A stretch of DNA of 9,877 bases from Thermoplasmatota archaeon (GTDB lineage: Archaea; Thermoplasmatota; Thermoplasmata; UBA10834), in assembly GCA_018818785.1 (NCBI GenBank), contig JAHIRF010000001.1, positions 1 to 9,877 of the forward strand, in the 5' to 3' direction. Both the position numbers and the translations under genes were made by a program. Every line of letters begins with the position of its first letter. The stretch's first letter is position 1. Below are positions 1 to 9,877 of the stretch, piece after piece. Below the pieces are notes generated by a model. That model saw nothing but the letters and a program-made list of their open reading frames with translations. It was not told where the DNA came from and did not search any database.

Positions 1-1327
1 AAAGGGTGATAGCGACATCGCCTAGTTCCATGGTTCCATCCCTGTCTTTCGTAACAAGATAGGCTCTGCTGCAGCCATGCACATCGCAGAACCTCGCGAG
101 TCCCTTCGCGTCAGATTTGTAGATGCTGGTCTGGTACTTCAATTCGATTGGAACAGGACCGTGTCTTGATGGCAGCACTATGTCAACCTCGTTCCCCTGC
201 GGATCTCTCCAGAAGAAGACCTGTGACGTCCTTGAGAAGTGGTTGTGCGCGGCGGTCTCCGCCAACCTTCCGAGTTCCTGACTTCCAGTCATATCATCTA
301 GTCCAAGAAGGGCACTGATCAATCCCGTGTCCGTGAGATATGCCCGTTTCGAGGATCGCGCCTGTTTGACCATGCTCTTGGTGTAGTTGTAGCAGGTCGA
401 GAAGAGCATCGCCCGCTCCAAGATAGAAAGGTACTTCGAGGCCGTTTGTGCCTTCATTCCTATGTCCGGTGCGATATTGGCGATCTCGAACATTTGAGAA
501 CTCATGGAGGCGAGTATCTTCAGGAGGTGCATCATGCTCGCAGGGTTCGCGATGCTCTCAGTTTCGGGAAGGTCGTGATACACAACTCTGTCCAGGACGG
601 ATTGCCGGATGTATCTGTGTACCTTTGTGATGGGTTGCATGCCGACCGTCTCCGGATATCCCCCTCTGACCAGGTAGTTGGTCAATGCGTTGGTGATCTC
701 ATTCTGAATGAGCATGAATGACTCCGGGACCGGAGCGTCCGACCAGATGAGTGGGATTCGTGGCACCTCAATCCCTTTGAACGCGAGATATTCTCGGAAG
801 GACAAAGTCGGAATGGTGATATCGAACGCTCTTCCCGCAAGGCTCTCGCCCATGCCCTTCCTCAATCCGAGCGACGACGATCCTGATGCGAATATCTTCA
901 CGTTCGATTTCGTCTCATAGATGCGCTTGAGGATGGTAGGCCATTCATTAATGAACTGTATCTCGTCGAGGAACAGGAATACCGGGTTCTTCTTCGAAGG
1001 CTTGGTTGGGACTACGTTCTCAAGGAAGTACGATACGACATCCTCGAGAATTGTGTGTTCCCTCGATAGGACTTCGTCAAAGGAGAAGTACATAGTGTTC
1101 TTGGAATTGACGCCCCTGTCGAGCAAATCCTGCATCGTCTTGGTGATTGCCGTGGTCTTCCCCGACCTCCTCGGTCCCGTGACAAGGACAATCTGTCGGT
1201 CATCGGCGAAGCTTGTCAACTCCTCAATCGATTCCCTTAGGATGATTTCTTCAACGTGCTCAGCGAGGGATTCACCTCTCCACTGTGGATTCGAGATCAC
1301 TATCTGTCTCACGAGCCTTTCGTTCAC
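1..1327 (-). CDS. AAA ATPase with DUF4143-type C-terminus (3' end outside window)
   Basis: Reads open on the minus strand for 442 codons to the window edge, so the C-terminus is missing. Walker A is GPRRSGKTT at residues 51-59 and Walker B is VFLFLDE at 116-122. A GSSS segment at 149-152 matches the sensor region of the AAA_14 family. The later part (about 200-440) follows the DUF4143 pattern: winged-helix-like LKILASMSSQMFEIANIA, then YLTDTGL, then E380-VD382 and E395-LK397, which resemble a PD-(D/E)xK nuclease core. The family is widespread in archaea and bacteria; its cellular role is poorly defined, and nothing here shows a substrate. I chose the GTG start (MNERLVRQIV) because it matches the usual family N-terminus and lies 26 nt from the centre of a TATA box with no Shine-Dalgarno site, as expected for a leaderless mRNA. 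The frame runs seven more sense codons upstream to TTG and then to a stop at about 1390, so an earlier TTG start is possible. No frameshift was found. Confidence 0.9.
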   Translation of the reverse strand, partial: MNERLVRQIVISNPQWRGESLAEHVEEIILRESIEELTSFADDRQIVLVTGPRRSGKTTAITKTMQDLLDRGVNSKNTMYFSFDEVLSREHTILEDVVSYFLENVVPTKPSKKNPVFLFLDEIQFINEWPTILKRIYETKSNVKIFASGSSSLGLRKGMGESLAGRAFDITIPTLSFREYLAFKGIEVPRIPLIWSDAPVPESFMLIQNEITNALTNYLVRGGYPETVGMQPITKVHRYIRQSVLDRVVYHDLPETESIANPASMMHLLKILASMSSQMFEIANIAPDIGMKAQTASKYLSILERAMLFSTCYNYTKSMVKQARSSKRAYLTDTGLISALLGLDDMTGSQELGRLAETAAHNHFSRTSQVFFWRDPQGNEVDIVLPSRHGPVPIELKYQTSIYKSDAKGLARFCDVHGCSRAYLVTKDRDGTMELGDVAITL

Positions 1328-1514
1328 GATGAATCGATGTAATTGTGAGTTTATAATGATTTCCAATATGTCTAAATGTGTTATTGGGCTTCAATTGCCC
1401 CACAGATAACACATGCAACGCTACGGGTTCGACCTTAGTTCGGCGACCGATTTCGCTTGCGATGTCCTCGAGATCGCCGACACATCGGTCGACACTGCCG
1501 GAAGCCCACCTCAT
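1272..1514 (-). CDS. Small unrecognised ORF, possible gene remnant
   Basis: An 80-codon frame that begins exactly at the edge of repeat copy 1 and overlaps the first 56 nt of the ATPase gene in another frame. Its first half (VGDLEDIASEIGRR, then VEPVALHVLSVG) has the alternating hydrophobic pattern and codon usage of a real protein. The second half runs through the ATPase promoter and looks random. I do not recognise a family. It has no ribosome binding site. It may be the remaining tail or middle of a decayed gene interrupted by the repeat, or chance. Confidence 0.2.
   Translation of the reverse strand: MRWASGSVDRCVGDLEDIASEIGRRTKVEPVALHVLSVGQLKPNNTFRHIGNHYKLTITSIHRERKARETDSDLESTVER
1350..1356 (-). 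promoter_or_regulatory. TATA box of the ATPase gene
   Basis: TTATAAA read on the minus strand. Its centre lies 26 nt before the GTG start codon at 1327, the usual archaeal distance between TATA box and transcription start. Transcription would therefore begin at or next to the start codon, giving a leaderless mRNA. No ribosome binding site is seen between box and start, which agrees with this. Confidence 0.55.
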
Positions 1515-1630
1515 TTCTTTGCCATCAAAGAATTCGGAGGATTCAAGGGTCGCATTTGGCTTTGAAGATTATAGCTGGCAGTTTTCATTAGGGGTAAATT
1601 CCGGGCTATAACCCGGACCCTCGCTCATTT
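1513..1630 (+). repeat. Structured intergenic repeat, copy 1
   Basis: First of three same-orientation copies, about 91% identical to copy 2 over 118 nt with no gaps (11 differences counted by eye). It can form TTCTTTG/CAAAGAA (1515-1521 with 1526-1532, a perfect 7-bp stem with a CCAT loop) or, alternatively, TCAAAG/CTTTGA (1525-1530 with 1560-1565). Near its right end TCCGGG (1600-1605) pairs perfectly with CCCGGA (1612-1617), and AGGG (1590-1593) pairs with CCCT (1618-1621) outside it. It begins 23 nt beyond the nucleotidyltransferase stop codon, and fills most of the 325-bp gap 1328-1652. The rest of that gap holds the ATPase promoter and the small ORF. Strand is given as the shared orientation; the transcribed strand, if any, is unknown. 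Confidence 0.85.
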
Positions 1631-1652
1631 TAATTCATAGTATAGGTAGTTG

Positions 1653-2516
1653 TCACATTGTTCGATTGTCCGCTGCATTGTATGCTCGCTTGGGCGATTT
1701 AATCCGATGGGGTCGCACCTTTCTGTCGACCACTATCTGATTGTTCTTTTCGAGATAGTCGAGGCACTCTCTGATAAATGCAGGGGTTTCCCTCAATTCG
1801 GTTGAGAGTCCATCGACCGAGTTCATCCCCTTGTCAATTAGTGTGAGCAACCGCTGGGCACCCATCTTCAATTCCGCTCTTGTCTTCAGTGCTCGTTTCC
1901 AGGGGACTTTCACACCGTATCTCCTTTCCATCTCATCGAGCTTCGTGAGAAGGAACGCCTCCCAGATGCTGCTCTTTCTCAGCCCTTCGGGATCAGTCTG
2001 ATTATCGCACTCCTCTAGGATGATATCGCGGCTCAATCCTTTTCTGAACAACGCGATCATGTCGTCAAGGTCTCTTGATCTCTCAGTTACGCTCTTGAGC
2101 AGGAATATATCTTCTCGCGAACAAATATACAGAACAAGTTCTCCCCATTCGTCAACCCGCTCTGCTCTTCGAATCATCCCTTCGGAGAGCCTTAGTTTGT
2201 TACAGATCCTTTCGGCGAAGATGTCGGCTCGCACCCCTCCTCCTGAAGCGGACAATATTGTCGCGTCTACAAGTGCGTGACATTCCTGTGGATGCCTGGT
2301 ATTGACATCGAATCCTAGCGATTCGAAAGCTCTCTTGAGTTCCTGCGCTTCAAGCGATGATCGCACTATCAGATCCAAGTCCTTGGTAGCATCCTTCTCG
2401 CCTCTGAGAGCCATTGCTCCACCTCCCACCAAGTAGACTTGGATTCTCATGCTACAGATATTCCCGATCTTCTCCATTATTGAAAGGACCTCTGATTTGC
2501 TGATTTGGGCCGGCAT
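1653..2516 (-). CDS. Nucleotidyltransferase, DUF6036/AbiEii-like
   Basis: A 287-residue protein with a polymerase-beta-type nucleotidyltransferase core. LVGGGAMALRG (29-39) is the glycine-containing motif, KDLDL (45-49) supplies the two metal-binding aspartates D46 and D48, and D98 in VRADIF fits the third carboxylate. The stretch EDIFLLKSVTERSRDLDD (135-152) matches the conserved helical part of AbiEii and DUF6036 proteins. Residues about 218-275 look like an added winged helix (ALKT...LLTLIDKG...LRETPAFIRECLDYLEKNN). Proteins of this type transfer a nucleotide to RNA or protein, and some are toxins; the target here cannot be told. The catalytic residues are all present, so it is probably active. 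Its ATG follows the upstream stop by 3 nt, with GGTGA as ribosome binding site at the end of the upstream gene, so the two are co-translated and likely act together. Confidence 0.75.
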   Translation of the reverse strand: MPAQISKSEVLSIMEKIGNICSMRIQVYLVGGGAMALRGEKDATKDLDLIVRSSLEAQELKRAFESLGFDVNTRHPQECHALVDATILSASGGGVRADIFAERICNKLRLSEGMIRRAERVDEWGELVLYICSREDIFLLKSVTERSRDLDDMIALFRKGLSRDIILEECDNQTDPEGLRKSSIWEAFLLTKLDEMERRYGVKVPWKRALKTRAELKMGAQRLLTLIDKGMNSVDGLSTELRETPAFIRECLDYLEKNNQIVVDRKVRPHRIKSPKRAYNAADNRTM

Positions 2517-2519
2517 CGT

Positions 2520-3440
2520 TCACTTCACCCCATATTGTATTCGTAATTCCTGCATATCCGACCTGCTAGGGAATAGCAGGTTCTCGACGTTTTCACCATC
2601 GAGGTATTTTATCATCAGTTCGGATAGTTCCCCCACCCCCATCGCATCTCCTTGTCTACGTAGGTATCCTGACCTGTAGCCACTCTTGAACAGGAAGAGC
2701 AAGCTGTATGCGATGCCTCTTGAGCTGCTTGGATCTATCAGGATGTTGTGGAGGGCGATATCCTCTGGTTTCAGACTCGGTCGCCAGTATGCATAGTGGT
2801 AATACTTCGTATCCGAAATGAACTGAAGTCCGCGTTGCGACATTGCTGTTACCCCAGTGCTGCGAATTCCAGATGTGTCTTTCAACTCTCTGGACGCGAA
2901 AATAAACTGAAGCCCTTCGCACCAGAGTATCCTCCCTGCCGAGGTGATGTCATCGAGGACCGCGGCGCACGCTCCTCTGGAGAAGTCCTGTAGAAATCGT
3001 GTTAGTATCTTGTCTGATTGAGGAATCGAAATCACATCGCCATCCTGGGCAACTGCTGCAAATCCTTTCAATGCCCAGACGATTCTGCGAACAGATTCTG
3101 GAGCAAGTCGCGTTTCAGTTGCGATTCTTCCGAGCGTCTTTTGATTACTGGAGGCCGAGAGCATGGCGAGGAGCCTGGAACCAATCAGTGGTTCGATTGC
3201 ACGAGAATTTCCTTCTAGATATGTTGCCAGTGCTTTTGAGTGACCATGCGAGCTTATGAAGATTATATTGATCTTCCCATCTCTCCGACTTGTCACAAGC
3301 TTCTTTGACGATAGAGACTGGATTATTCTGTAGATTGAGATATTCGATAGGCCCGTATCTTCTATTAATGCAGCTGCTGATACATGACCATCGCATACTG
3401 ACTTGAATACTCGGAGTTCATTCTTGTTTAGAATATACAT
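2520..3440 (-). CDS. Double winged-helix protein, putative antitoxin or regulator
   Basis: A 306-residue protein beginning MYILNKNELRVF. Residues 5-65 form a winged helix (AAALIEDTGLSNISIYRIIQSLSSKKLV). Residues 84-140 look like a second one (LGRIATETRLAPESVRRIVWALKG). The rest (165-306) contains a YHYAYWRPSLKPEDIALHNI segment that recalls the C-terminal domain of AbiEi-like antitoxins, though similarity is by eye only. The frame could start 17 codons earlier at 3491, but that puts the TATA box inside the coding region; the ATG at 3440 lies 27 nt from the centre of that box and fits a leaderless mRNA. It is the first gene of a two-gene unit with the nucleotidyltransferase and probably represses the unit, neutralises its partner, or both. 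No transmembrane segment or enzyme motif was seen. Confidence 0.7.
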   Translation of the reverse strand: MYILNKNELRVFKSVCDGHVSAAALIEDTGLSNISIYRIIQSLSSKKLVTSRRDGKINIIFISSHGHSKALATYLEGNSRAIEPLIGSRLLAMLSASSNQKTLGRIATETRLAPESVRRIVWALKGFAAVAQDGDVISIPQSDKILTRFLQDFSRGACAAVLDDITSAGRILWCEGLQFIFASRELKDTSGIRSTGVTAMSQRGLQFISDTKYYHYAYWRPSLKPEDIALHNILIDPSSSRGIAYSLLFLFKSGYRSGYLRRQGDAMGVGELSELMIKYLDGENVENLLFPSRSDMQELRIQYGVK

Positions 3441-3462
3441 TGTGTGCAATAATTGATTGTTC

Positions 3463-3471
3463 ATATATATA
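3463..3471 (-). promoter_or_regulatory. TATA box of the winged-helix/nucleotidyltransferase unit
   Basis: TATATATAT on the minus strand, with its centre 27 nt before the ATG at 3440. There is no Shine-Dalgarno site in between, so the mRNA is probably leaderless. This box decides the choice of 3440 over the longer frame start at 3491. The spacing agrees with that of the ATPase promoter in this window. Confidence 0.6.
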
Positions 3472-3632
3472 GAATTTATCAATATTGACACAGATGTTGC
3501 GGTTCAATGAATATCAAAGCGTCGTGATATCGCTTCATCTTCTGCCGCTAGAGCATCAGGGTAGCAATCATCAAGGTCCATTCCATTTTGAACTCAGCTT
3601 GACAATATGACCCTGGAATAATCTGATATCCT

Positions 3633-3750
3633 ATTTCTTTACCATCAAAGAATTCGGAGAATTCAAGGATCGCATTTGGCTTTGAAGATTATAGCTGGCA
3701 GTTTTAATTAGGGGTAAATTCGGGGTGATAATCCGGGCCCTCGCACATTA
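3633..3750 (+). repeat. Structured intergenic repeat, copy 2
   Basis: Same length and orientation as copy 1, shifted by exactly 2120 nt. Its stems are weaker: TTCTTTA replaces TTCTTTG, and the right-hand hairpin has one G-G mismatch plus a G-T pair (CGGGG with TCCGG). It gains a GAATTC-GGA-GAATTC inverted repeat at 3650-3664. It lies beyond phoU, the last gene of the pst operon, whose stop is 90 nt away, and 193 nt upstream of the winged-helix gene. In the 399-bp gap 3441-3839 the remainder holds the TATA box at 3463-3471 and, at 3794-3802, TTTTGATGG, which is complementary to CCATCAAA inside the repeat. I see no gene there. Confidence 0.85.
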
Positions 3751-3839
3751 TTATACTATACAATGGATTTATACTCGAATCTGCAATAGCTCATTTTGAT
3801 GGCGGTACGGGAAAGCATGATTGACCTCACTGCATTGGG

Positions 3840-4499
3840 TCACTTCTCTACCCGTTCTCCGGTCTTCATATAGACCGTTCGTTCAGCGATGTTGCATGCA
3901 TGATCAGCTATCCTCTCAAGATATCTCGCAACGAACTGATAGTTCATCCCCATCGTGATGTTCGCAGAGTTCTCCATCATGTATGTCAGGACTTCTCGGA
4001 ATATCTCGTCGTACAGAGAGTCGACCCGGTCCTCAAGGACGAAGACCTCCTCGGTCTTATCCAGGTCTCCCTCGAGGAAGGATTCGACGGCTAGGTCGAC
4101 CATGGATACAGCCATCTCTGATATTCGGGGTATGCTCACGAGCACTTTGAAATGGCGAAGGTTAGATGCTTTGACTCTCTCCGTTATCTCGGCGATATCT
4201 TTCGCGTACCTCACAATCCTGTCGAAGTCGGTGGTGATCTTCAGGCTCGTGGTCACGTATCTGAGATCACCGGCAACCGGTGCGTGCAAGGCGATTATCT
4301 TGATAATCCCCTTCTCAGTCTTAACGAGAGTCTCATATGCCTTCTCGTCCAGCTCTCTGACCCTCTCGACAAGCGAGAGATCCAGATCCTCAAAGGATTT
4401 CGCAGCTAGGGTTATGGCCTCTCGGGCCATGGATCCCATCATGTTCATCCTCTCTCCGAGCTCGTTCAGCTCATCTTGATATGCTTTCCTCGGCGACAT
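3840..4499 (-). CDS. phoU: Phosphate signalling protein PhoU
   Basis: A 219-residue protein, the normal length for PhoU, made of two three-helix PhoU domains. The conserved metal-site motifs are present in each half: DRIVRYAKDIAEI at 93-105 and ERIADHACNIAE at 195-206. The N-terminus (ELNELGERMNMMGSMAREAI) and LHAPVAGDLRYV at 71-82 are also typical. PhoU is a cytoplasmic protein that restrains Pst transport and, in bacteria, links it to PhoR. No histidine kinase is in this window, so its partner here may instead be the AbrB-PhoU protein encoded at 8493-9509. It is the last gene of the operon: its ATG follows the pstB stop by 4 nt, and GGTGAT at the pstB stop codon serves as ribosome binding site. 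Confidence 0.95.
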   Translation of the reverse strand: MSPRKAYQDELNELGERMNMMGSMAREAITLAAKSFEDLDLSLVERVRELDEKAYETLVKTEKGIIKIIALHAPVAGDLRYVTTSLKITTDFDRIVRYAKDIAEITERVKASNLRHFKVLVSIPRISEMAVSMVDLAVESFLEGDLDKTEEVFVLEDRVDSLYDEIFREVLTYMMENSANITMGMNYQFVARYLERIADHACNIAERTVYMKTGERVEK

Positions 4500-4503
4500 G
4501 TTA

Positions 4504-5271
4504 TCACCCGAACCTCCCTGTGATGTATCTCTCTGTCAACTCTTCTTCTGGATTCTCGAATAGTCTCTTCGTCTTGTTGAACTCTATCAGTTCTCCAAGA
4601 TACATGAATGCCGTCCAATCGGCCACACGTGCTGCCTGTTGCATGTTGTGCGTGACTATGATGACCGTGTAATCATTCTTCAAGTCGAATATGAGATCCT
4701 CTATCTTGGAAGTGGCTATGGGATCCAACGCGGAGCACGGCTCGTCCATGAGAAGTACTTCTGGTTCTATTGCCATGGCGCGCGCGATGCACAGCCTCTG
4801 CTGTTGTCCTCCCGATATGCTCACTCCTGAGGCGTCCAAGTTGTCCTTCACCTCGTCCCAAAGAGCCGCTTGCTTTAGACTTCTCTCGACCTGCTCCTGT
4901 ATGAACGCCTTGTCTCTGATGCCGTTCATTCTCAGTCCGTAAGCGACATTATCGAATATCGATGCGTTGGGGAACGGATTCGGCTTCTGAAAGATCATTC
5001 CTACTCGTCTCCTGACATCAACGGGGTTGGTCCCTCTCGAATAGATATCCTCTCCCTCGAGCAGCACCTCTCCAGTCACCCTCGTCCCAGGAACGACCTC
5101 ATGCATCCTATTCAAGCATCTTATGAACGTCGACTTTCCGCACCCAGACGGTCCTATGATTGCCGTTGCATGGTTTGCCTTGACCTTGATGTCAATTCCT
5201 TTGACCGCCTTGTTCGAACCAAAGTATGCATCGAGTTCTCTTGTCTCTATCTTCGCTGATGATTCTCCCAT
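4504..5271 (-). CDS. pstB: Phosphate ABC transporter ATP-binding protein PstB
   Basis: A 255-residue ABC ATPase that energises phosphate import at the inner face of the membrane. All motifs are intact: Walker [10 protein letters not shown] (40-48), Q-loop FQKPNPFP (94-101), signature SGGQQQR (153-159), Walker B VLLMDE (172-177, catalytic E177) and H-loop VTHNMQQ (206-212). The PNPFP after the Q-loop and the C-terminal ERYITGRFG are hallmarks of PstB rather than other ABC ATPases. The start ATG has a strong GAGGAGG site upstream, lying within the last codons of pstA, whose stop is 3 nt before the ATG. It would dimerise and couple to the PstC and PstA cytoplasmic loops. Confidence 0.97.
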
Positions 5272-5274
5272 GTG

Positions 5275-6138
5275 TCAACGCCTCCTCTTAAACAGATGTC
5301 TGCCTCCATGGGCAATTATCCTCACTGTGATGTTCAGACCAAGCACGAGCAGTATCAGGAAGGCGCTCGCTCCCCACGCTAGATCATGCCAGTTATCGAA
5401 CGGAGATATCGCGAACTGGTAGATCAGCACAGGCATCGACGCCATCGGCTGGGACAGGGTCGTCGGGTAGAATGCGGTCCATCCGACAGTGAGCAATAAT
5501 GGAGCTGACTCTCCCGTTATCCTTGCAATGGACAGCATTATCCCCGTTATGATGCCAGGCTTGCCATTCGAGAGAACAACCGTCCTTATCGTAGCGGAAC
5601 GGCTAACTCCTAGGGATAGCGAAGCTTCCCTGAGCGATGTTGGCACCAACTTGAGCGCCTCCTCGGTCGTCCTTGCGACAACAGGCAGCATGATGATCGA
5701 GAGTGCTAATCCTCCTGCGAATGCATTCGGGCCTCCGAGGGACACTACCAGGACGAGATAGGCGAATATGCCAATGATTATGGATGGGAAACCGGCAAGC
5801 ACATCCATGACGAAACGGACGGTCCTTCCGAACAAGTTGTCCCCATATTCAGATACGAATATCCCAGACACGATTCCTATCGGGATCCCGATCAACGAAC
5901 CGATTCCAATGGCTGCCAATGTGCCGACAATGGCCGGTCCTATCCCTCCGACCTCATCGCTCCCTGGCGGTGGTATGGTTCCAGTCAGGAACTCGAATGA
6001 GAACTGTGGCAACCCCTTGATCAGCACGTCCACGAGTATGCTTACTAGAGGGACCAGAGCAGCTATGACACACGCAACCGCGGCGACCGTTGCCAGCCGG
6101 TCCTTGATCATCCTCTTTCGAAAGCCCTTGGAGTTCAT
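5275..6138 (-). CDS. pstA: Phosphate ABC transporter permease PstA
   Basis: A 287-residue membrane protein with about six transmembrane segments (roughly 15-40, 66-92, 108-133, 142-155, 193-220, 256-276). The ABC permease coupling loop is REASLSLGVSRSATIRTVVL (170-189), and GIPIGIVSGIFVSEYG and ARITGESAPLLLT are typical of PstA. The open frame extends upstream to 6279, but that extra part (rich in Cys, Ser and Arg) overlaps pstC and looks non-coding. The ATG at 6138 is preferred because it forms an ATGA overlap with the pstC stop and has GGGAGG about 11 nt upstream. It pairs with PstC to form the phosphate channel. Confidence 0.95.
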   Translation of the reverse strand: MNSKGFRKRMIKDRLATVAAVACVIAALVPLVSILVDVLIKGLPQFSFEFLTGTIPPPGSDEVGGIGPAIVGTLAAIGIGSLIGIPIGIVSGIFVSEYGDNLFGRTVRFVMDVLAGFPSIIIGIFAYLVLVVSLGGPNAFAGGLALSIIMLPVVARTTEEALKLVPTSLREASLSLGVSRSATIRTVVLSNGKPGIITGIMLSIARITGESAPLLLTVGWTAFYPTTLSQPMASMPVLIYQFAISPFDNWHDLAWGASAFLILLVLGLNITVRIIAHGGRHLFKRRR

Positions 6139-7154
6139 TCGACTCTGACCCTCCCGACCTTCGTGACACGGCTGAGCAAGATTCGACCAACTACATTTAT
6201 CGCCAGCATGAGTACAAACAGTACAAGCCCTACTCCGATCAGTGCGGATTGTTGAACTGTTCCGGACGGCGCCTCCCACCAGTTGGCTGCTATGAGACTA
6301 GACAGAGTCTGTCCTGGATCGAGAAGAGACCACGAGAACGAATTCACATTTCCTATCACCATGGTTACCGCCATGGTCTCTCCAACAGCTCTTCCAAGCC
6401 CCAGCACGGCAGCACCGAATATGCCTGATCGTGCATAGCTGAGAGCGATAGTTCCGACCATCTCATATCTTGTCGCGCCCAGTGCTAATGCTGCCTCCTT
6501 CTGCGAAGTTGGCACGGCTTTGAGCGCATCCCTTGATATCGCGGATATGGTAGGTATTATCATTATTGCTAGAATGACAGCTGCGCTCAATTTGTCTATT
6601 CCGAAGGTCCTTCCTTCGAAGAACGGCAGAAAGCCCAAGCTCCCTTGGAGGAACGGTTCCACCTGATCCCTCATGAACCCTCTTAGCGTGAATATCCCCC
6701 AGATGCCGAAGACGACGCTGGGAACGGCTGCGAGCATCTCCACGAGGAATCCCAATGGCGTGCCGATCCATTTGGGTGCGATCTCGGAGATGAATATGGC
6801 AATCCCCACGCTGATGGGGACTGCTATCATCATGGCAACGGCGGATGTGTAGAGTGTCCCACCGATGAACGGAAGCGCTCCAAAGATCCCTTGATCAAAA
6901 CTCCAGGTGCTTCCTGTGAAGAATTTGTACCCCATCGAATCCAGCACCGGAAAGGCTCCCTCGATGAGGTAGCCCACGACCCAAGCGAATATCGCGACAG
7001 CAGAGAATGCGAGGGCCCCGCAGAATAGCTGGAACCGGCCGTCTGAGGTCAGGATGAGATGATTCAATGTCTCCCTCAACCCATCCAGTTTAGCAGACGG
7101 AGGATTCCAGCCATTATGGACTGGGTCATTGGGGCCGCCTTCGTCGTTATTCAT
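6135..7154 (-). CDS. pstC: Phosphate ABC transporter permease PstC
   Basis: A 339-residue membrane protein. After about 43 hydrophilic residues come six transmembrane segments (about 44-64, 100-124, 136-158, 190-207, 244-268, 304-325). The coupling loop is KEAALALGATRYEMVGTIAL (219-238) and GRAVGETMAVTMVIGN (254-269) is the PstC signature. The loop between the third and fourth segments (about 160-188) is external. The ATG overlaps the last codons of pstS by 8 nt, with GGGGAG about 10 nt upstream, so translation is coupled to pstS. It forms the channel together with PstA. Confidence 0.96.
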   Translation of the reverse strand: MNNDEGGPNDPVHNGWNPPSAKLDGLRETLNHLILTSDGRFQLFCGALAFSAVAIFAWVVGYLIEGAFPVLDSMGYKFFTGSTWSFDQGIFGALPFIGGTLYTSAVAMMIAVPISVGIAIFISEIAPKWIGTPLGFLVEMLAAVPSVVFGIWGIFTLRGFMRDQVEPFLQGSLGFLPFFEGRTFGIDKLSAAVILAIMIIPTISAISRDALKAVPTSQKEAALALGATRYEMVGTIALSYARSGIFGAAVLGLGRAVGETMAVTMVIGNVNSFSWSLLDPGQTLSSLIAANWWEAPSGTVQQSALIGVGLVLFVLMLAINVVGRILLSRVTKVGRVRVE

Positions 7155-8298
7155 TGTACAAAGGCTCCCCGTCGCATACTATGGATCTCAGAGTCTCCTC
7201 GTTGAGCTCGACTACTTCGGAGGGCAACGGCGCATAGTAGAGATTGTCTGAATACGCCTGCCCATCATGCACCATCCACCATAGGAAATCTACAAGCGCC
7301 TTGCCTTTCTGGTTGTCTGCCTGCTCCTTGTATACGAGTATGTATGTGAAGCTGGCGATCGGATACGAATTATCACCATGCGCATTCAGTATCTCAACGC
7401 CGTTCCAGCTCTCATCGCCAGCCGGCAGAATTGCTGCGCTGGCTGTAGCGGCTGCAACAGTAGATTCGGTCGACGGAAGCACGAAGAGCCCTTCCAGATT
7501 CTGGATGGCTGCGCAATCGATTTCGTTCTCGACCGCATACGAGAGTTCGAGGTACCCTATGCTGTATGGTGTCGTGGACATCAGACCTGCCACTCCTCCG
7601 TTTCCGGTACCACCTATGGTCTCAGTTGGCCAGTCTATGGTCTTCGATGCTCCGTATAGCTCCATCCATGTCCCGTTCACCTTCGAAAGATAGGAGCTCC
7701 ATATGAATGTCGTTCCACTGCCATCCGCTCTCCGAACTACGGTTATCGGCTCGTCCGGAAGGGTCAGGCCGGGGTTGATTGAGGCAATCTCGGGATCGTT
7801 CCAGTTCGTGATGTCGAGCATGAATATTCCCGCAATAACATCTCCCGTAAGGTTCAGGCCATTGCCCAGCTCTGGAACATTGTAAGCACATACCACTGCG
7901 CCCAATGTCTCCGGTATGTGAAGTAGTCCAAGATCGTCCTTGTCGGTCGCGAGCGGAACGTCCGTTCCGGCGAAATCTACAAGATCATCGACTATTCTGC
8001 TTATTCCTCCGCTGCTTCCAACCCCTTCATAGCTCACCCTCACGGAGGTATCATTTTCGTAGACCTGTACCCACTTCGAGATCAATGGAAACGGGAATGT
8101 CGCTCCCGCACCAGATAATGTGACGTTCTCATCCCCATGGGAGTTTAAAACCTGCAGAGCAAAAACCACTCCGATTAGCAGAGCAACGATGGCGCCTGCG
8201 ATCACCAACTTCATCGGCTTGATTTTCCCGCGATCATTCTGGGCTGCGGCAATCCTTCCACGGACATCAGCTGTAACTTTATTCGCCTCTTCGCTCAT
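7147..8298 (-). CDS. pstS: Phosphate-binding protein PstS, membrane-anchored
   Basis: A 383-residue solute-binding protein. Residues 31-50 form one hydrophobic segment and the binding domain follows outside the cell. Phosphate-contacting positions known from E. coli PstS have counterparts: T67 and F68 in GAGATFPFP, S95/S96 in GVGSSGG, D113 in FAGTD, and R190, S194, G195, T196 in RRADGSGTT. GGTGNGGVAGLM (229-240) and YSIGYLELSYA (245-255) are also typical. There is no cysteine after the hydrophobic segment, so anchoring is by the membrane segment, not a lipid. A 30-residue charged tail precedes it. The start is set by AGGTGA about 5 nt upstream of the ATG; M29 is a weaker alternative with no ribosome binding site. 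First gene of the pst operon. Confidence 0.96.
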   Translation of the reverse strand: MSEEANKVTADVRGRIAAAQNDRGKIKPMKLVIAGAIVALLIGVVFALQVLNSHGDENVTLSGAGATFPFPLISKWVQVYENDTSVRVSYEGVGSSGGISRIVDDLVDFAGTDVPLATDKDDLGLLHIPETLGAVVCAYNVPELGNGLNLTGDVIAGIFMLDITNWNDPEIASINPGLTLPDEPITVVRRADGSGTTFIWSSYLSKVNGTWMELYGASKTIDWPTETIGGTGNGGVAGLMSTTPYSIGYLELSYAVENEIDCAAIQNLEGLFVLPSTESTVAAATASAAILPAGDESWNGVEILNAHGDNSYPIASFTYILVYKEQADNQKGKALVDFLWWMVHDGQAYSDNLYYAPLPSEVVELNEETLRSIVCDGEPLYNE

Positions 8299-8375
8299 TG
8301 TGTCACCTGCGATCTTCTTGCTTGCTCTGTCTCTTCAATGGTCAGCAGGCGACCGTTGGCGCTTGAATGTTCAGA

Positions 8376-8419
8376 GCTTATATGTCATTGTCAAACTGTG
8401 TCAAGCAACCGCATATATA
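8376..8419 (-). promoter_or_regulatory. Candidate promoters of the pst operon
   Basis: Two TATA-like boxes face pstS. ATATAA lies at 8378-8383 and CTATATATG at about 8412-8420. Starts would fall near 8355 and 8390, giving leaders of about 57 and 92 nt, which agrees with pstS using a Shine-Dalgarno site. Three TGACA words (minus strand) occupy 8383-8387, 8389-8393 and 8399-8403, directly upstream of the nearer box where TFB would bind, so they could be an operator. Which box is used cannot be decided from sequence. Confidence 0.45.
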
Positions 8420-8430
8420 GAAGTATAGTC

Positions 8431-8496
8431 TCTATATAGAAAGCAATAATATCACCTCGTGCCAATGGGTGTATATAGAGTCCAATTAATGGGTGT
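8431..8496 (+). promoter_or_regulatory. Promoter region of the AbrB-PhoU gene with direct repeats
   Basis: Two TATA-like boxes face right, at about 8432-8438 (CTATATA) and 8472-8477 (TATATA). The second would start transcription near 8500, almost at the start codon, so the mRNA may be leaderless. The word AATGGGTGT occurs at 8464-8472 and again at 8488-8496, 24 nt apart, bracketing the second box; the second copy overlaps the GTG start. This arrangement suits a repressor site. With the pst promoters it fills the 194-bp gap 8299-8492. Confidence 0.4.
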
Positions 8497-9509
8497 TGAT
8501 ACCTTTGCAGGAATCTAGACGAATTCAAAAGACCGGAGGGTCGACCTACACTATCTCCCTCCCGAAGCGATGGGTAGTGGACTCCGGCTTGAAGAAGGGC
8601 GATTTTCTATTGATGACGATAGGCAGTGATGGATCACTTTCGATAGATTCTGGTTCTCCCCGAGAGACAGAGAAGTTGACGAAAGAGATATCAGTCGACA
8701 GCAAGACTGATCCACGAGCATTGCTGAGACAGCTTATCGGTGCATATGTCACGGGTCATGACGTGATTCATATGAGATCCAATTCTAGAATTCTCCCTGA
8801 GATTAGAAGGGTTGTTCAGGATTTCTCAAGAAGGGTGATCGGACCTGAGATTATCGAAGAGAGTTCCAATCACATTGTTGTACAAGATGTCGCTGACCAT
8901 GCGGACTTGGCCATGCGGAAGGTCGTTCGCCGAATGCACCTGATGGTGAAGAACATGTTTGAGGAGGCCGTGAGAGCAGTCGATAGTATGGACGTCACTC
9001 TTGCTGATGAGGTCATCGCAAGGGACGATGAGGTTGATCGACTTCACTGGTTCGTAGAAAAACAGCACGCGACTATCCGCCGCAATGTATCATTTGCGAT
9101 CAAGATGAAGATGAGCTGGTTGGAGTCGGACGTTCTGCTTTCCACAGCGAAATCGTTAGAGAGGATTGCGGACCACGCTGTTCGAGTCGCGCACAGCGTT
9201 CGATTGCTCGAGACTTCGAAGGTGGACCGCGCGGTGATATCCGATCTCGAGCGATTGAGTAGTGGTGCGGTCTCAATTCTCGATGACAGCATCGAAGCCT
9301 TGTTCAAGAGCGATTCTATTCTTGCCAACAAGTGTCTAGATCGGTCATCCAGCCTTCAAGACGAGATAAATAAATTCCTTGAGGGTGCGATGACCCGGCG
9401 GGGGAAGGTTGCAGTCGGGCTGGCATTCGCAGCTGAGAGTGTTTCACGAGCTTGTGGGTATTCATCGGATATCGCAGAGACCGCCATCAACCTCGCAGAA
9501 GGACAATAG
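8493..9509 (+). CDS. AbrB-PhoU fusion, putative phosphate uptake regulator
   Basis: A 338-residue protein. Residues about 7-55 (ESRRIQKTGGSTYTISLPKRWV, then GLKKGD) form an AbrB/SpoVT-like swapped-hairpin DNA-binding domain. Two PhoU-like helical domains follow, about 137-235 (AKSLERIADHAVRVAHSVR) and 250-336 (AESVSRACGYSSDIAETAINLAE). This architecture is known from archaeal phosphate uptake regulators and implies a transcription factor that senses Pst or PhoU state; the direct target is not shown. It is divergent from pstS and shares its promoter region, so it likely controls the operon and itself. The start is uncertain: GTG at 8493, TTG at 8496 or TTG at 8505 all precede the conserved domain, and none has a Shine-Dalgarno site. 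Confidence 0.9.
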   Translation: MLIPLQESRRIQKTGGSTYTISLPKRWVVDSGLKKGDFLLMTIGSDGSLSIDSGSPRETEKLTKEISVDSKTDPRALLRQLIGAYVTGHDVIHMRSNSRILPEIRRVVQDFSRRVIGPEIIEESSNHIVVQDVADHADLAMRKVVRRMHLMVKNMFEEAVRAVDSMDVTLADEVIARDDEVDRLHWFVEKQHATIRRNVSFAIKMKMSWLESDVLLSTAKSLERIADHAVRVAHSVRLLETSKVDRAVISDLERLSSGAVSILDDSIEALFKSDSILANKCLDRSSSLQDEINKFLEGAMTRRGKVAVGLAFAAESVSRACGYSSDIAETAINLAEGQ

Positions 9510-9517
9510 TCCTCGGC

Positions 9518-9536
9518 GACCTCTCGGTCTTTGTTT
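9518..9536 (+). terminator. Possible terminator after the AbrB-PhoU gene
   Basis: GACC (9518-9521) and GGTC (9526-9529) can pair around a TCTC loop and are followed at once by TTTGTTT, 9 nt after the stop codon. The stem is only 4 bp, but archaeal termination depends mainly on the T-rich stretch. Confidence 0.35.
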
Positions 9537-9653
9537 CACGTTGTGATCCGATCCCTATGTATCTCGCGCCTTCATTCATGCGGGCTCGATTCTGATGACT
9601 GAGTCGGTTTTGATGGCAGCCTTCTACAGCGCAATGAATCGGCTTTCCCGTTC

Positions 9654-9771
9654 ATTTCTCTGCCATCAAAGAATTCTTGTATGGGCTTGGTCTGCTTTTG
9701 CTTTGAAGATTATAGCTAGCAGTTTCAATTAAGGGTAAATTCGGGGCCATAATCCGGACCCTCGCACATTT
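9654..9771 (+). repeat. Structured intergenic repeat, copy 3
   Basis: Aligns without gaps to copy 1. The ends are about 90% identical, but the 23-nt block 9677-9699 differs at most positions. The right-hand hairpin keeps the same form as copy 2 (CGGGG with TCCGG) and the outer AGGG/CCCT pairing. The left-hand stem has one mismatch (TTCTCTG). It lies 145 nt beyond the AbrB-PhoU stop codon, on the same strand as that gene, whereas copies 1 and 2 lie beyond minus-strand genes. Just upstream, TTTGATGGCAG (9609-9619) is a perfect inverted repeat of CTGCCATCAAA (9660-9670). The rest of 9510-9653 holds only the possible terminator; I see no gene there. Confidence 0.8.
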
Positions 9772-9791
9772 TAATAATCTGGTGTGAATTA

Positions 9792-9877
9792 ATGTTTGAC
9801 GTTGTCTGCTCGGAATGCTCTGTTACCTCTTTTCTGCAATCGAATCTTGCGTCGAGAGGAGGAGTCTCCACAGAGGG
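9792..9877 (+). CDS. Possible start of a gene with a CxxC motif (cut by right edge)
   Basis: An ATG frame stays open for 28 codons to the window edge, beginning MFDVVCSEC. GGTG lies 7 nt upstream as a possible ribosome binding site, and TTTTAATAAT at the end of repeat copy 3 could be a TATA-like element, though it is only about 21 nt away. MFxxxCxxC recalls the N-terminus of small archaeal zinc-ribbon proteins, but the following residues do not clearly fit. Too short to name. Confidence 0.3.
   Translation, partial: MFDVVCSECSVTSFLQSNLASRGGVSTE

Follow-up and report, generated by a model that had tools for sequence, protein, structure and literature searches.

A 122-nt sequence that occurs three times, in the same direction, within less than 10 kb of archaeal DNA raises the question of whether it is an RNA gene, a signal at gene ends, a mobile element or the mark of a larger arrangement. 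The stretch analysed here (the window) is the entire 9877-bp contig C2 of an archaeal MAG of 1.97 Mb and 12 contigs, genome G000 of the set compared. Judged by sequence comparison, the repeats are very probably attachment-type joints between gene cassettes that were integrated site-specifically and are stacked downstream of tRNA-Leu(CAA).

Copies of the repeat and their tRNA-Leu(CAA) core

Three gap-free copies in the same orientation had been predicted and were confirmed at 1513-1634, 3633-3754 and 9654-9775 on the plus strand, with a length of 122 nt and identities of 100, 90 and 80 % for copies 1, 2 and 3 when copy 1 is taken as the reference. Conservation ends at the edges of the block when the copies are aligned with their flanks. 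They lie close to the 3' ends of genes, as had also been claimed: a nucleotidyltransferase gene (minus strand) ends at 1653, the PhoU gene (minus) at 3840 and the AbrB-PhoU gene (plus) at 9509, a proximity that would arise because the copies are cassette boundaries. Further copies had been expected in the genome, and 8 BLAST matches and 11 profile matches were found there. Using a sequence-only site profile of 75 nt, sites were detected in all 19 family genomes examined and in one of two sister-family genomes, at 1-24 matches per site-bearing genome (tRNA-Leu ends counted in); the other genomes of the class searched with this profile gave a single marginal match (E 0.009), and the core pattern had no match in a viral contig collection.

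In all three copies the right part (ATCCGGRCCCTCGCACATT) is the 3' end of a tRNA-Leu(CAA). A complete gene for this tRNA lies at C8:69728-69813 of the same Thermoplasmata MAG, and its 3' end, GGTTCAAATCCGGGCCCTCGCACATT, contains the repeat core. The tRNA origin of half of the repeat was invisible to the original prediction; the tRNA gene sits on another contig than the window. Matches to the right-box pattern were the three copies in C2, further ones on both C8 and C9, and the tRNA-Leu(CAA) on C8; at intact joints the direct repeats equal the 3' end of the target tRNA, as in tRNA-specific elements and CIMEs.

Each joint appears to consist of a left arm of about 95 nt, which would be the end of one cassette, and a core, about 20 nt long, that reproduces the 3' end of tRNA-Leu. 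In the window the left arms span 1513-1607, 3633-3727 and 9654-9748 and the cores, with the tRNA-Leu 3' end, 1608-1634, 3728-3754 and 9749-9775. The left arm differs from the T-loop of the tRNA (GTCAATAT versus TTCAAAT), and a weak candidate right-arm motif (TTAAT, 12-13 nt, ATTTATRT) is seen at the start of the next cassette. About 55 of the 77 distinct sites in the loci compared are full-length, and about 22 stop after ATCCGG or nearby, without the rest of the tRNA core. At the truncated sites L117:960, L009:1564, L088:3995 and L095:6081 left arms are fused to non-tRNA sequence. The right flanks of two truncated joints recur across genera (G000/G009 and G014/G001), which suggests secondary-site insertions or old deletions later moved as units.

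Cassette boundaries, cargo and array layout

The strongest evidence for the array reading comes from cassette boundaries. In cassettes common to two genomes, nucleotide homology crosses the site and stops 0-4 nt from the core end, as in a symporter cassette (G007/G016), an ATPase cassette (window/G010) and Fic cassettes (G014/G001 and G001/G016). Synteny upstream of tRNA-Leu, compared between G014 and G009, stops at core end +1, so that the homology of the elements and the synteny of the chromosome both end at the repeat, as is characteristic of tRNA-specific elements. The same ATPase cassette start stands behind two different cassettes, on C8 and on C2, with identity beginning right after CCGGR, which would put the point of exchange within CCCTCGCACATTTTAAT.

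Neighbouring sites within 10 kb of each other lie on the same strand in 47 of 48 pairs (P 3.5e-13), at a median spacing of 1.7 kb; small cassettes arrayed with their sites in one direction are an arrangement of the integron type. In the complete genome G007 the array is about 357 kb away from tRNA-Leu. A contig titled Candidatus Thorarchaeota archaeon OWC5 (L098, PRDJ01000040.1) has a tRNA-Leu(CAA) and, 3.6 kb downstream of it, a full site of the same direction; it is probably a misbinned Thermoplasmata contig and would otherwise be a cross-phylum case.

The window begins within cassette A (right part, 1-1634), which contains an AAA_14/DUF4143 ATPase gene (2-1366, minus) and ends in the first joint. 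This cassette is also present in G010, where homology ends 1-2 nt beyond the core. Cassette B (1635-3754) carries a DUF6036 nucleotidyltransferase (1653-2516, minus) and an HVO_2833-like winged-helix protein (2520-3437, minus) and ends in the second joint. Cassette C (3755-9775), ending in the third, holds a Pst/PhoU operon on the minus strand, with PhoU (3840-4499), PstB (4504-5271), PstA (5275-6144), PstC (6135-7154) and PstS (7147-8298), and divergent from it, on the plus strand, an AbrB-PhoU gene (8493-9509). In the product of this last gene an AbrB/MazE-like N-terminus is joined to a PhoU domain, and the protein is likely a phosphate regulator. The remaining 9776-9877 form the beginning of a second ATPase cassette and have an identical counterpart in the tail of C8, past the last C8 joint, where the ATPase gene follows. 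The two copies of the ATPase cassette in the window's genome are 92 % identical over 1.6 kb.

Downstream of tRNA-Leu, C8 carries a 201-aa gene, the 325-aa gene P0001 and then sites at C8:99945 and 101991 in the same direction. Its last 244 nt (L047:16016-16259) equal the 102 nt that end C2 (window 9776-9877) followed by the 141 nt that start both C2 (window 1-141) and C3 (L009:1-141). These overlaps would place the window in the array downstream of tRNA-Leu(CAA), the simplest path being C8-C2-C3. Along that path the order would be tRNA-Leu, a 30-kb integrase element, a site, a NosD-like gene, a site, the ATPase and the site at 1608; then the nucleotidyltransferase and winged-helix genes, the site at 3728, the Pst/PhoU operon and the site at 9749; and last the second ATPase copy, a truncated site, a catalase gene and a truncated arm. 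The same overlaps also allow a C8-C3 path with a separate C2 circle of about 10 kb; that the 244-nt overlap lets C2 close on itself would fit a circle and is no proof of one. Inside the 30-kb P0001 element on C8 a transposase adjoins a DnaC-like ATPase as an IS21-type-like pair (L046:13840-15953).

Across the arrays the cargo includes Pst/PhoU, NosD-like, Fic, MntP and symporter genes, ArsP alongside an ArsR-type regulator, MttB together with a corrinoid protein, UbiA, acetyltransferases, catalase and an opine-dehydrogenase-like enzyme. Its character is adaptive, with phosphate uptake and the export of metals and arsenic as well as catalase, Fic and methyltransferase functions. In four comparisons between genera, cassette genes were 76-88 % identical, against 61-77 % for three core genes beside the tRNA, and in the within-genus case, DUF6326, the 74 % identity was no higher than that of core genes; these identities, set side by side with no formal test, are consistent with exchange. 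A gene for the TATA-binding protein is found just before an attachment-type site on C9 (L011:9270-9827), and an 80 % identical homolog just before a site on C4 (L012:7618-8274), also in G000. Both precede sites, and an archaeal general transcription factor may therefore travel as cassette cargo.

The integrase candidate and competing explanations

In the mechanism proposed here, a circular cassette (arm, core, arm) would recombine with the tRNA-Leu core or with any core of the array; the tRNA 3' end would be restored at each event, so that the array could grow. The catalyst would be a tyrosine integrase, Xer-like and of the P0001 type, together with a ribbon-helix-helix-like partner, and the integrase may act in trans, largely so. 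Most cassettes are without an integrase and would therefore be passengers, like cis-mobilizable elements or integrase-less attC clusters. A wider reading, a real possibility that is put forward tentatively, is an archaeal integron-like platform independent of IntI/attC, with a cassette pool shared across a family of uncultured Thermoplasmata. The platform might work, and this too is a tentative suggestion, through a tRNA-Leu-fixed Xer-like integrase and its DNA-binding partner that take up and shuffle one- to few-gene cassettes tagged with sites of about 120 nt.

In the window's genome the partner gene (201 aa) and then P0001 (a tyrosine recombinase of 325 aa) lie directly 3' of tRNA-Leu(CAA). 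P0001 matches PF00589 (2.4e-24); its best model is recomb_XerA_Arch, at 162.5 bits with a cutoff of 220, and it scores 53.9 bits with the integron-integrase NCBIfam model TIGR02249, whose cutoff is 265. Being below the XerA cutoff and far below that of IntI, it is classed as Xer-like from its model scores, and its best solved relative is a XerA. Relatives in the class share 40-52 % identity, and a relative of the same partner gene stands beside most copies of the P0001-type integrase in the class. The partner-integrase pair occurs just 3' of tRNA-Leu(CAA), Leu(TAA) (G031) and Ser(GGA) (G052), and the tRNAs found next to P0001 relatives are all of class II. A TACCnGTAAA-like motif lies 5-6 nt past the tRNA in four of five loci, with a weaker match in G000; it could be an arm motif, with the signal weak and the loci related to each other. 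When a second copy of the right-box motif was sought in the left arm with a profile test, the result was not significant for most sites, and repeated arm-binding sites are therefore not claimed from it. Arrays of tRNA-end copies were sought in G031 and G052, where the P0001 relatives sit at other tRNAs, and none were found.

The predicted structure of the partner protein is a modest model (pLDDT 70.5, pTM 0.34). It shows a helix pair at the N-terminus, a coiled coil and, at the C-terminus, a helix-strand part that resembles a winged helix. Sequence comparison with solved structures gave no convincing relative, and nothing firm is drawn from the structure. The partner gene also stands behind tRNA-Leu(CAA) in G004 and G010, where the contigs end inside it. 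Within the family P0001 itself is present only in the window's genome, and the complete array-bearing genomes G007 and G016 have no relative of it beyond a weak XerA-type match. With P0001 missing from these genomes and the G007 array far from tRNA-Leu, we infer rather than observe the enzyme; most arrays could have been built by XerA or by some other enzyme since lost. A serine recombinase as the general driver was rejected, as no resolvase-family gene was found in the array-bearing G010 and G001.

The array may still be active. According to the best-surviving alternative, which we consider unlikely, it is a relic, built by an old integrase and now subject to no change other than decay and homologous recombination between its sites. 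The many truncated sites, the lack of an integrase in most genomes and the distance of the G007 array from tRNA-Leu fit such a relic, but its boundaries are precise, between genera its cassette genes mostly show higher similarity than core genes do, and an intact integrase reading frame stands next to the tRNA in the window's genome.

It is more doubtful still that the cassettes have hijacked the housekeeping XerA, a dif-type enzyme, with the P0001 element an unrelated visitor at the same tRNA. XerA is the most widespread PF00589 protein in the family, and many sites occur in G010 and G014, neither of which has another clear tyrosine recombinase. However, G001, an incomplete genome, has an array without any PF00589 match, the core is a tRNA end, which is the usual target of integrases and not of XerA, and P0001 sits at that very tRNA, its relatives being at other class II tRNAs.

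In Methanosarcina, tRNA-Leu 3' ends can serve as casposon targets. A reading of the repeats as insertions of casposon-type or other transposons, with target-site duplication in tRNA-Leu, is very improbable, since Cas1 was not found in the 12 family genomes searched, nor terminal inverted repeats in 20 cassettes, and casposon membership was rejected on both grounds.

The original prediction had offered three candidates: a small RNA family, a 3'-end or termination element, and a non-autonomous mobile element. The last came close, in that mobility is retained; the repeat, however, would not itself be the element but an attachment-type joint between mostly integrase-less cassettes. That the repeat is a structured small RNA or a 3'-end element is highly improbable, close as the copies are to gene 3' ends, a link that follows from their being cassette boundaries. 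Rfam searches at gathering and permissive thresholds gave nothing relevant. The stem and bulged hairpin that had been described did not stand out from shuffled sequence, with folding-energy z scores of -0.05, +1.00 and +0.24 for copies 1-3 on the plus strand; the minus strand gave only -1.82, +1.05 and -0.55. When a conserved fold was sought with RNAalifold in 44 aligned sites, three pairs at -0.77 kcal/mol were obtained, one with a single double change, which amounts to essentially no covariation, and a structured small RNA family was rejected. The G-T versus A-C difference taken as a hint of a plus-strand RNA was lost in this larger sample. The TCCGGG/CCCGGA hairpin of copy 1 corresponds to the T-arm region of the tRNA, and homology breaks at the right box, a tRNA end.

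An integron of the IntI/attC type, suggested by an integrase and by an array in which small cassettes have sites of one direction, has practically no chance of being correct and was rejected on the IntI score of P0001, the absence by inspection of the attC boxes RYYYAAC/GTTRRRY from the 44-site consensus, the absence of a conserved plus-strand fold in these sites and the tRNA end as core.

Comparison with known systems

Of the systems described so far, the nearest are the ssrA islands of Dehalococcoides, CIME accretion, tycheposons with tRNA-end islands, and integrons. Cassette capture is known mainly from bacterial integrons. Integrons have recently also been found in some archaea, and integrase-less integron arrays are common (PMC9668308). 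The arrays described here resemble integrons, the archaeal ones included (PMC9668308), in having an integrase at one array end, small cassettes and conserved sites in one orientation, but differ in being without IntI, the attC consensus and a conserved fold, in having a tRNA 3' end as core and in carrying cassette genes in both orientations.

The ssrA islands of Dehalococcoides are stacked in tandem downstream of a tRNA-like gene, 20-bp direct repeats of the 3' end of this gene form their boundaries, the repeats have conserved flanks, many islands are without an integration module, and insertion is at the T-loop (PMC3146451). All these features are shared by the cassettes, among which the target is tRNA-Leu(CAA) rather than tmRNA, the candidate enzyme a Xer-like tyrosine integrase with a separate DNA-binding partner rather than a CcrB-like serine recombinase, and the distribution an archaeal family rather than one bacterial genus (PMC3146451); the cassettes are mostly of one to few genes. 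Membership of the ssrA islands was rejected on target and enzyme.

The tandem accretion of ICEs, IMEs and CIMEs likewise stacks integrase-less att-bearing elements at one target-gene end, but those tandems usually comprise few, larger and mostly decayed elements (PMC5704250), whereas the small cassettes described here have precise ends and are found again in different genera. Tycheposons and the tRNA-end islands of Methylophilaceae share the tRNA-anchored adaptive cargo and the Xer-like recombinase; as far as the available part of the source goes, they are bacterial, larger (4-200 kb) and described without a conserved site of some 120 nt in each cassette (PMC10872708).

Arrays from re-use of one integration site are already known for archaeal elements generally, and no description of the present array system was found in the literature searched, of which coverage was partial. 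If there is a separate tRNA-anchored solution in Thermoplasmata, cassette stacking behind one platform evolved more than once, and the passage of phosphate uptake, metal export and catalase genes between these archaea would be explained. Arrays can be found with a simple profile of the conserved site, and the enzyme-site pair predicted here is directly testable. The parts are ordinary and the arrangement unusual, a family-wide tRNA-anchored cassette array in uncultured Thermoplasmata, integron-like in its architecture and small cassette size and with a core like that of tRNA-specific integrative elements.
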